This document shows positions 9,365 through 18,145 of a DNA stretch of 51,507 nt, piece after piece (position 1 is the first letter of the stretch; each line of letters begins with the position of its first letter). The stretch spans positions 1 through 51,507 of the forward strand of contig JAADGE010000035.1 in the NCBI GenBank assembly GCA_013152535.1. Reading direction: 5' to 3'. The translations under genes and the position numbers were made by a program. Below the pieces are notes generated by a model. That model saw only the letters and a list, made by a program, of their open reading frames with translations, searched no databases and was not told the DNA's origin. The stretch comes from Chlorobiota bacterium. Lineage in GTDB: Bacteria; Bacteroidota; Bacteroidia; Bacteroidales; JAADGE01.

Positions 9365-9781
9365 ATGGATCGTCATACTTCGGAACAAAGAAGACGGAAT
9401 ATGCAAGCCGTTAAATCAACCGGTACCAAAATTGAAATTATTCTCGGAAAAGCATTATGGAAAAAAGGATTTCGTTATCGAAAAAATGTAAAAACAATAT
9501 TCGGCAAACCTGATTTTGTTTTTAATAAATATAAAATTGCAGTTTTTTGCGACAGTGAATTTTGGCACGGAAAAAATTGGGAAACCAAGAAATACGAAAT
9601 AAAATCGAACAGAGATTTTTGGTATAAAAAAATTGAAAGAAATATTGAAAGAGACGTAGAAGTTAATACGAAATTAAAAAAAGAAGGTTGGACGGTTTTG
9701 CGATTTTGGGGTCAGGAAATTTTAAAAAATACAGATAATTGTGTAAAACAAATTGAAACAGAAATTTCAAAGAGAACCTAA
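9365..9781 (+). CDS. vsr: Very-short-patch-repair (Vsr)-type endonuclease
   Basis: Vsr enzymes nick next to T:G mismatches left by deamination of 5-methylcytosine. This 138-residue protein shows the fold order of the family: the N-terminal HTSEQRRRNMQAVKSTGTKIE with the metal-linked Glu, RYRKNV then FGKPDFVF, the catalytic-region FCDSEFWHGKNW at about residue 58, and WTVLRFWGQEI near 115. Compared with E. coli Vsr the structural zinc-binding cysteines around the WH motif are absent. No cytosine methyltransferase gene lies nearby, although vsr normally accompanies one. It follows the LRR gene by five bases. Confidence 0.85.
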   Translation: MDRHTSEQRRRNMQAVKSTGTKIEIILGKALWKKGFRYRKNVKTIFGKPDFVFNKYKIAVFCDSEFWHGKNWETKKYEIKSNRDFWYKKIERNIERDVEVNTKLKKEGWTVLRFWGQEILKNTDNCVKQIETEISKRT

Positions 9782-12562: not shown

Positions 12563-12937
12563 ATGAAAAAAATTTACATTATCGGATTACTGTTTTCTTG
12601 GATAATTTTGAGTTCTGCTGTTCCTCCGACAAAAAATACAGAAGGAATAAAAGGTAAAGGATTGAAAGTCTATGTGGTAAAGTATGATTATCAGGCAGAT
12701 ATAAAAGTATTTGTTTGCGATTACGATTATCAGGCAGATTTAAAAGTGTATAAAGTCAAAAACGATTATCAGGCAAACGGTGACGGGAAATGGTATTTTA
12801 CCGATTATGACTATCAGGCAGATAAAAAAATCTACTTTACCGATTACGATTATCAGGCAGATTTAAAAATTTATTTTGTTGATTATGACTATCAGGCAGG
12901 ATGGAATAATAAATCAAAAATGCATTTAGTGTATTAA
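12563..12937 (+). CDS. Exported 7(1) septoil-knot (DUF6150) family protein
   Basis: The 124-residue protein has a signal peptide (about residues 1-19, ending LSSA) and then six near-identical short units centred on DYQA (KYDYQADIKVF, DYDYQADLKVY, NDYQANGDG, DYDYQADKKIY, DYDYQADLKIY, DYDYQAGW). From memory this pattern is the DUF6150 / Septknot family, whose members are predicted, and in one case reported, to fold into a 7(1) torus knot of short beta strands. The function of the family is unknown. The codons for YQA are TATCAGGCA in all six units, so the repeats probably arose by duplication or are homogenised. A weak -7 box, TAACTTTA, lies at 12517-12524. Confidence 0.82.
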   Translation: MKKIYIIGLLFSWIILSSAVPPTKNTEGIKGKGLKVYVVKYDYQADIKVFVCDYDYQADLKVYKVKNDYQANGDGKWYFTDYDYQADKKIYFTDYDYQADLKIYFVDYDYQAGWNNKSKMHLVY

Positions 12938-16883: not shown

Positions 16884-16918
16884 AATCCCGAAGCATCTGT
16901 TTGTTTCGGGATTTTTAT
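16884..16918 (+). terminator. Terminator of the coaX unit
   Basis: AATCCCGAA (16884-16892) pairs with TTCGGGATT (16905-16913) and is followed by T's. It also excludes a TTG at 16901 as the start of the next gene, because that codon lies inside the hairpin. Confidence 0.85.
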
Positions 16919-16936
16919 TTATTTTTATCCTCCGAA

Positions 16937-18145
16937 ATGAAGCTGTTAATAAATAGGTTTACAGGGCTTATAATATTAGTTATTTTATTATTAGGTTTTT
17001 CGGCTTATGCTCAAAATCCTTATTATCTTAAAAAAATCCCCTTAAAAGGAGAGGGAACCTATGCTTTTCTGCGTCGTTTTCATCTTGATGATAATTCTTG
17101 TAATCTCAAAAAATTCTTGGAATTAAATAATTTGGAGAAAACCGATAATTTGTTTTTTGACAAAGAATATAAATTGCCGATATTAATTTATGCCTATAAC
17201 GGTAAAAGTATTCGCTCCACAATCGGGAATAATAATTATGATTTAGCTTTACAAATTCAAAAATATAATGAACTTATTTTATCGGAGAATTTAAGAAAAA
17301 CACATTACACCGAATCTGAAATTTTATGGGTTCCGTTTGGTATGTTTAAATGTCCGAACAGTATTTCTGTTGTTGAGAAAATAGGAGCGAGGCAGAAAAG
17401 TATCGGTACAAAAACCGTAAAACTCTTCGGAAATGAAAATAAAAAAGTTGAAATTGAAGATAAGTTATTGGAGAACAGAGTGTTCTACATCGTCAGCGGA
17501 CACGGAGGACCTGACCCCGGAGCACGTTATCTTGGTAAGCATCATACACTTTGCGAGGATGAATATGCTTATGATGTTGCTTTACGTTTGGCAAGAAATT
17601 TAATTCAGCACAGTGCAATTGTTTATATTATTATTCAGGACCCTAATGACGGTATTCGAGATAAAAAATATTTAAAATGCGATAAAGATGAAAAAAGTAT
17701 TCAGGGAAAATCTTTGCCGAGAGACCAAGTAAAACGTTTGAAACTACGTTGTGATGATATTAATCGAAATTACAGAAAATATAAAAAAATAGGGGTAAAA
17801 AGTCAAACTTCTGTAGTAATTCATGTGGATTCCCGAAGTTACCAAAAGCGACAAGATGTATTTTTCTATTATTATTTCGGCAGTAAACAAGGAAAACGAA
17901 CTGCTTTGGCAATTCATGAAAAATTTGCAGAAAAATATCGCAAAGTACAAAAAGGCAGAGGATATCACGGAACAGTTTCTGCCAGAAATCTTTACGTATT
18001 GAAGCATACTTTACCTACGGCAGTTTTTTTAGAGCTCGGAAATATTCGTAATACATACGATCAAAAAAGAATTATACTTCCCGATAACAGGCAGGCATTA
18101 GCAAATTGGATTTATTTAGGATTAAAAGATGCTTTGCTTAAATGA
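16937..18145 (+). CDS. N-acetylmuramoyl-L-alanine amidase (Amidase_3)
   Basis: The 402-residue protein starts with a signal anchor or signal peptide (ending FSAYAQ). A LysM-like region follows (about residues 30-85: GEGTYAFLRRFHL through DKEYKLP). The catalytic amidase occupies about residues 180-400. The zinc ligands are visible: His in VSGHGGPDPGA, Glu in CEDEYAYDVA and His in VIHVDSR; the catalytic Glu is in FLELGNI. It cleaves the bond between muramic acid and the stem peptide in peptidoglycan, so it acts in the periplasm during division or remodelling. The ATG at 16937 is chosen because the earlier TTG lies in the upstream terminator. Confidence 0.9.
   Translation: MKLLINRFTGLIILVILLLGFSAYAQNPYYLKKIPLKGEGTYAFLRRFHLDDNSCNLKKFLELNNLEKTDNLFFDKEYKLPILIYAYNGKSIRSTIGNNNYDLALQIQKYNELILSENLRKTHYTESEILWVPFGMFKCPNSISVVEKIGARQKSIGTKTVKLFGNENKKVEIEDKLLENRVFYIVSGHGGPDPGARYLGKHHTLCEDEYAYDVALRLARNLIQHSAIVYIIIQDPNDGIRDKKYLKCDKDEKSIQGKSLPRDQVKRLKLRCDDINRNYRKYKKIGVKSQTSVVIHVDSRSYQKRQDVFFYYYFGSKQGKRTALAIHEKFAEKYRKVQKGRGYHGTVSARNLYVLKHTLPTAVFLELGNIRNTYDQKRIILPDNRQALANWIYLGLKDALLK

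Follow-up and report, generated by a model that had tools for sequence, protein, structure and literature searches.

Q9PR55 of Ureaplasma (PDB 8IWA, 8IWB and 8JRM) is reported to carry a 7_1 knot, described as the most complex of the confirmed protein knots. The knot was predicted by Brems et al., who placed the knotted core at residues 27–83 (PMC9278004), and its confirmation by X-ray is also reported (PMC13352647, PMC11223836). For a homologue, P73136, a 5_1 knot is predicted (PMC9278004, PMC13352647). A route to such topologies is described for designed knotted tandem repeat proteins, in which q repeats, each turned by p × 360/q degrees, yield a (p,q) torus knot; the designs reported are (2,3) and (2,5) torus knots, are alpha-helical and have three or five repeats (PMC10598012). 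A natural repeat protein whose coils are out of sequence order is the Knotted Solenoid of Brevundimonas, described as a dimeric, triangular beta-solenoid with a 3_1 knot whose nearest unknotted kin are pentapeptide repeats (PMC13123833).

The family described here, DUF6150, is natural and mainly strand plus turn, unlike the designed knots, with which it appears to share the principle of a constant turn per repeat. It differs from the Brevundimonas protein in its probable knot type, shape and bacterial group. We analyzed one stretch of 51,507 nucleotides from a Chlorobiota bacterium (hereafter the window), in which a single frame without internal stops encodes a full member of the family. In a Pfam profile search its product matches PF19647 (DUF6150) at E 1.3e-29 and 102.5 bits, against a gathering cut-off of 27, and the domain is near-complete (profile 9–98 of 98). 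A preliminary description of this DNA had proposed the family and suggested an HMM search, and the search bears the assignment out. No NCBIfam or PHROGs family matched the protein. Its features are as follows (plus strand throughout; coordinates are those of the window).

12563–12937 (+): DUF6150 gene, 124 aa, stop included; open reading frame and PF19647 profile match
12563–12622 (+): likely Sec signal peptide, about residues 1–20 (Lys-Lys, a hydrophobic stretch, Ser-Ser-Ala); helix 2–17 in the AF2 model, then a low-confidence linker at 21–29
12662–12877 (+): six short strands alternating with the words below, residues 34–38, 47–51, 60–65, 76–80, 88–93 and 101–105; DSSP on the AF2 model, same pattern in the second model
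12683–12700 (+): word 1, YDYQAD, residues 41–46; from sequence, a helical turn in the AF2 model
12722–12739 (+): word 2, YDYQAD, residues 54–59; from sequence
12761–12778 (+): word 3, NDYQAN, residues 67–72, with two extra residues in the linker after it (GDGKW); from sequence
12806–12823 (+): word 4, YDYQAD, residues 82–87; from sequence
12845–12862 (+): word 5, YDYQAD, residues 95–100; from sequence
12884–12901 (+): word 6, YDYQAG, residues 108–113; from sequence
12899–12934 (+): C-terminal partial seventh coil and short helix, residues 113–124, GWNNKSKMHLVY; helix 117–122 in the AF2 model, covariation mainly with strands 3, 5 and 6

The repeat pattern of the protein is far beyond chance. 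Units are spaced by 13, 13, 15, 13 and 13 residues, the longer step being due to the small insertion that follows unit 3. Six YDYQAD units had been counted in the preliminary description; there are indeed six repeats, but YDYQAD itself occurs in four, since unit 3 reads NDYQAN and unit 6 YDYQAG.

The N-terminal lysines and hydrophobic stretch are what we take to be a signal peptide. A hydrophobic segment precedes the core in 234 of the 240 family ORFs that could be located (of 241), but this crude count is an overestimate because it reads upstream of possible start codons; L144, for example, is included in it even though the probable start codon is found immediately ahead of the core. Together with the AF2 helix and linker, the count makes the export proposed earlier likely for the window protein, and DUF6150 proteins in general seem to be mostly exported.

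Two AF2 models were made, one of the window protein with 26 sequences (block pLDDT 95–98 over residues 41–110) and one of the mature core with an alignment of 60 of the 86 selected diverse rows (mean pLDDT 95.9, pTM 0.83). Each unit is modeled as a strand of 5–6 residues followed by a three-residue helical turn that carries the word. In both Foldseek searches of the PDB, the four top rows are Q9PR55 chains (best E 9.6e-4 and 4.7e-3). These are the only chains below E 0.1 in either search, and the rows after them have E of at least 0.8. The Foldseek superposition is poor (rmsd 10–10.8 Å, TM by target 0.35–0.42). VIA-align superposes the model on residues 22/23–84 of the Q9PR55 chain with Z 6.9, which is in the middling range by the tool's own scale, and an rmsd of 2.0 Å over 62–63 residues; this span takes in the whole published knotted core and leaves 21 model residues out. 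Since 83–84 model residues are needed to cover these 62–63, the coils of the DUF6150 model look about three residues longer, or the chain makes one extra excursion.

Q9PR55 is thus the best and only convincing structural match. Profiles of 26 and 60 family members searched against the PDB do not return Q9PR55 at E ≤ 10, and phmmer and profile searches for a sequence link to any solved structure gave weak matches (best E 0.15) or none. A viral structure library gave 0 of 33 rows with E ≤ 0.001. The models support the same three-dimensional arrangement as in Q9PR55 over the knotted core, with the Foldseek rmsd of 10 Å as a caveat. We consider it probable that the backbone forms a 7_1 knot, as the preliminary description had proposed; the fold agrees with that proposal, and the knot type is read from the fold match. 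AF2 is reported to be able to pass chains through each other, and caution is urged for knots (PMC10672856).

Members of the family were collected in several samples. DUF6150 is encoded in 33 of 60 relatives, including all 13 same-genus genomes searched, in 105 of 393 genomes of the order, in 20 of 395 drawn across the phylum and in 16 of 164 of a second order, some of which were counted already in the earlier samples. The 14 control genomes had no copy. A collection of 84,980 species genomes was also scanned once with a pattern, and 531 of the 586 stretches that matched it code for relatives. The best 80 of these are mostly named as Bacteroidota, Chlorobi or Ignavibacteria, mainly MAGs with a few isolates; the exceptions among these 80 are three entries named 'uncultured bacterium', one Rhizobium and one Competibacteraceae MAG. 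The first table of relatives kept 112 of 137 hits, leaving out ten remote or broken loci (L007, L124–L132) and identical genes, and a larger set kept 254 of 289 domain hits after identical cores were dropped.

An alignment-based scan of a viral collection found 19 contigs or loci with DUF6150. A single-sequence scan of viral contigs gave no relative, and tblastn gave no match at E ≤ 1e-5 in plasmid and phage record collections. Ten of the viral-collection contigs with a DUF6150 gene (L182, L184, L185 and L189–L195) have several neighbor genes in common, one of which matches a phage metal-dependent phosphohydrolase family, and DUF6150 may be a phage cargo gene there. A 344-kb contig of this collection encodes a DUF6150 protein with the word YKYD in 6/6 units (L180:2944–3273, +).

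The source genome (3.3 Mb, with the window on contig 67) has a second DUF6150 gene, with the word TEAWAD (L002), so its two paralogs differ in word (YDYQ versus TEAW). Four more genomes of this genus also carry TEAW (L141, L142, L143 and L145), whereas the words of some second copies in the genus are different or mixed (L147, L148 and L151). Elsewhere, two copies lie next to each other (L018:1074–1415, +, and L018:1456–1788, +). One has six YKSD words, and in the other all six are different (SYND, FKNQ, SEKE, DEKD, YKTD and NKKY). It is possible that a constraint was released after duplication.

The central result concerns the first four residues of the word, which are often nearly identical over the six units of one protein and different between proteins, as in YDYQ, YESQ, YKSD, TEAW and SKYD. 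Statistics were computed on the 229 complete sequences of the 254, from which 116 representatives below 80% identity were taken. Among these representatives, identity at word positions 1–4 is 0.75, 0.57, 0.83 and 0.77 of unit pairs within a protein versus 0.31, 0.20, 0.27 and 0.31 for the matching unit of different proteins. The relation is reversed at positions −5 and −3 and at word position 6 (27, 18 and 34% within versus 69, 54 and 64% between). Position −6 and word position 5 are about equal within and between proteins, and at scaffold positions −4, −2 and −1 identity is somewhat higher within proteins than between them, by 0.05–0.10, so that unison extends a little beyond the word. When four-residue blocks are compared, words score 0.729 within versus 0.271 between proteins, and scaffold blocks score 0.371 versus 0.537 (positions −5 to −2), or 0.389 versus 0.425.

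At least five of the six words are identical in 41 of the 116 representatives. Shuffling units between proteins gives a mean of 0.02 such proteins and a maximum of 1 in any of 1000 shuffles. Among the 229 complete sequences, 27 different words each occupy five or six of the six units of one protein or more; YESQ, YDYQ, YKSD, SKYD, TEAW, ADYK, NRYD, WKSE, SESY and SEAF are among them. The alanine after the word is nearly constant (1342 of 1446 units). At the other end, three words or fewer equal the protein's own consensus in 59 of the 116 representatives, and lineages with heterogeneous words exist (L262, L265–L268, L270 and L271, for example). Because there are such members, unison is not demanded by the fold alone. 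On a tree built from the alignment columns outside the word (177 rows, 67 columns), 50 word changes were counted over 102 uniform rows; with only 11 of 174 inner branches starred, that number is unreliable, and we rely on the count of distinct words instead.

If the protein is wound as Q9PR55 is, then coils that are adjacent in the ring are not adjacent in sequence. The (2,7) torus knot calls for seven coils; the DUF6150 protein has six words and a partial seventh coil. With seven coils turned by 720/7 degrees each, the ring neighbors of coil i would be i+3 and i+4, not i+1. Covariation was examined by mean-field DCA of 241 of 301 aligned rows (effective number 131). The top scaffold couplings include strand 2 with 6, 3 with 6 and 3 with the C-terminal coil, and many are at separations of 41 and 54 residues, in register. 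Among the 10 highest couplings, 6 are at unit offsets of 3 or 4 and 2 at offset 1; among the highest 30, the numbers are 15 and 9. Over all unit pairs, relabelling gives p 0.033 for the (2,7) pattern versus 0.63 for a plain solenoid. For word couplings the combined p is 0.075 for (2,7) and 0.050 for (2,9), and among single positions only position 2 falls below 0.05 for (2,7).

Residue sharing between unit pairs (193 of 239 rows) gives a less uniform picture. Shared departures from the word favor (2,7) neighbors at p 0.006 raw; after removal of per-unit bias p weakens to 0.067, and a 3+3 duplication pattern does equally well (0.067). Sharing of scaffold residues favors sequential units (p 0.039 raw, 0.003 centered), perhaps through the likeness of units 5 and 6, and word sharing is stronger for unit pairs 2–5, 2–6 and 5–6 than for others. 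Covariation is compatible with a seven-coil double winding but mixed, and since several patterns and statistics were tried, we read it as mild support.

Charges within the word suggest what might hold the units together. Positions 2 and 4 are opposite in charge in 17 of the 18 distinct consensus words that are charged at both (Fisher p 3.8e-4, with distinct words not being independent lineages), and positions 3 and 4 in 6 of 7. The opposite charges at positions 2 and 4 point to pairing, and covariation is compatible with such pairing either within or between units. If the words occupy equivalent turns of a ring, pairing between ring neighbors would tie all six together.

The explanation that we favor, with a probability of about 50%, is that these are envelope proteins with a 7_1-like ring in which selection on the exported protein matches the six words. 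Sec export would come first, after which a mature protein of about 95 residues would fold into a ring of repeats, with six complete coils and a C-terminal partial seventh. A short strand and a helical turn would make up each coil, and the ring would be traversed twice by the chain as in Q9PR55. With the word on the turn of every coil, the six words would lie in equivalent places, and selection on the protein would hold them alike and change them together. The likeliest reason for the unison would be that words of ring-neighbor coils touch, position 2 of one pairing with position 4 of its neighbor; the closed ring of contacts that results would accept matching words alone. In the cell, the product would most likely be a very stable small envelope protein. 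We hold more tentatively, at somewhat less than even odds, the fuller proposal that the seven-coil torus-knot fold carries an interchangeable, symmetric code of at least 27 words, each kept in at least five of the six sites of some member by selection on the protein, in which the contacts or a binding surface switch in concert while the scaffold stays constant.

The six words might instead form a multivalent surface for a repetitive or symmetric partner, such as a glycan strand, a lattice or a surface polymer, matching because each binds the same thing, with a new word marking a new partner. Such a role would fit words that move in unison while the scaffold does not follow, the different words of the two paralogs of the source genome and the recurrence of TEAW in its genus, as well as the presence of the family on viral contigs. 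It would also fit the domains found with remote members. In one, a DUF6150 domain is fused to an OmpA domain (L274:7–1239, −; E 1.1e-15), and in another it occurs with a SPOR match below cut-off (L273:1328–2179, −; E 0.04); by eye, these two loci have the same two genes side by side. A third has an SH3_3 match below cut-off (E 4.3e-5) and, by eye, a likely membrane segment (L129:985–1701, −). Domains of the OmpA, SPOR and SH3 types often act at peptidoglycan, and together with the N-terminal segments they point to an envelope protein. The third protein lacks both the unit-3 insertion and an N-terminal signal peptide; its five regular 13-residue units (KYEAD, AYEAE, AYEAD, AYDAD and AYEAD) are followed by a Ser-rich stretch and then the membrane segment, and it is possibly a five-coil variant.

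In the gene neighborhoods, no neighbor was found to go with the family beyond near relatives. In the window, a metallo-beta-lactamase-fold gene lies upstream and a type III pantothenate kinase gene downstream; the former is common to 8 loci and the downstream genes to 6 each, all of them near relatives. Some upstream genes recur in L039, whose protein is identical to that of L008, a locus from a different genus within the family, and a further set of relatives has common neighbors of its own (L046, L052, L198, L202, L205 and L227). Two large groups of neighbor genes (19 and 17 loci), by eye an alpha/beta-hydrolase and probably a sensor kinase, recur as well and seem to belong to common, abundant gene families. 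The window also encodes a Vsr mismatch endonuclease (9365–9781, +; PF03852, E 7e-31) and, about 4 kb downstream of the DUF6150 gene, an N-acetylmuramoyl-L-alanine amidase (16901–18145, +; PF01520, E 1.6e-16). Besides the gene neighborhoods, the opposite charges at positions 2 and 4 look like internal pairing, and word sharing is uneven over unit pairs. On this evidence, a binding surface is a rather unlikely primary reason for the matched words.

A different account places the cause in the DNA, with unit duplication or gene conversion spreading a word. The preliminary description had noted that all six Tyr-Gln-Ala codon triplets of the window gene are identical, and they do read TATCAGGCA in 6/6 units. 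It had also found the absence of CAA unusual. CAG makes up 22.8% of the 399 Gln codons in the other long ORFs of the window, so that six CAG codons by independent draws would have a probability of about 1.4e-4 (0.228^6), but six equal Gln codons of either kind would be expected with a probability of about 0.21. For all codons over word positions 1–5, a Monte Carlo test gives p 0.0135. Among the 218 of 229 family genes with enough background codons for this test, 19 have p ≤ 0.01 (about 2 expected). The codon uniformity of the window gene is therefore mildly unusual, not exceptional. One of the more uniform genes (L233, 1960–2319, +) has the word codons TAC GAG TCG CAA in all six units and is a good candidate for recent DNA-level copying or strong codon preference.

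Several comparisons speak against recent duplication or gene conversion, which the preliminary description had suggested, as the general cause of the unison. The TATCAGGCA uniformity is kept in the closest, near-identical relative (L019; p 0.03) and lost in L022, L016 and L014, which have the same word but mix CAA with CAG and use several Ala codons. Across the 41 uniform representatives, codon match is 0.561 in words versus 0.512 expected (+0.049, interval 0.015 to 0.085) and 0.607 in the scaffold versus 0.555 expected (+0.052, interval 0.016 to 0.089), with expectations taken from the usage of neighboring ORFs, not whole genomes. Since the excess has the same size in words and scaffold, it probably reflects the general codon usage of these genes. 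In addition, the scaffold blocks beside the words are not homogenized, with positions −4, −2 and −1 only slightly more alike. The silent differences inside words thus argue against recent unit copying, which on these codon data is unlikely as a general cause.

Some codon patterns do fit a copying step. Codon match is clearly above expectation at word position 3 (0.553 versus 0.404), and below it at position 2 (60.4 versus 65.5%). Ser word positions mix the TCN and AGY boxes in 20 of 55 cases, but had the codons arisen independently, more mixing would be expected (44.7 of 52 positions versus 19 observed), and this relative uniformity probably accounts for the excess at position 3. When a new residue comes to fill the six units, its copies would thus often follow one codon route, either through old copying or through equal mutation from an equal codon. 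Older copying at the DNA level may have taken part in the origin of a word, and protein-level selection appears to keep the words equal now. As the explanation of the unison as a whole, homogenization at the DNA level is improbable.

Side-chain ladders of beta-helices, such as asparagine ladders, place identical residues at equivalent places of stacked coils, whereas DUF6150 proteins switch a four-residue word together and their neighboring coils need not be sequential. An ordinary unknotted beta-solenoid in which matched words form such ladders between sequential coils would suit the regular 13-residue coils, the high Foldseek rmsd to Q9PR55 and the scaffold sharing between sequential units, but we think it quite unlikely given that Q9PR55 chains alone fall below E 0.1 among PDB rows, that VIA-align superposes the whole published knotted core at 2.0 Å and that scaffold DCA couplings have no preference for sequential coils (p 0.63).

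Within the literature searched, whose scope did not extend to subscription papers and preprints, no paper was found with DUF6150, PF19647, Septknot or YDYQAD, and none in which 'knotted protein', 'concerted evolution' and 'tandem repeat' occur together. With no earlier description found, we regard the word unison in DUF6150 as a new observation. Six positions of a single chain here behave as one in evolution, apparently without recent DNA copying, which is unusual. If the inference on the fold holds, then DUF6150 is a widespread, mostly exported natural family built on a 7_1 knot, and two questions become testable: how such a knot ties after export of the unfolded chain, and whether knots constrain evolution. 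The words of the family would also be natural symmetric sequence solutions for the design of torus knots, which is reported to have reached (2,5) (PMC10598012).
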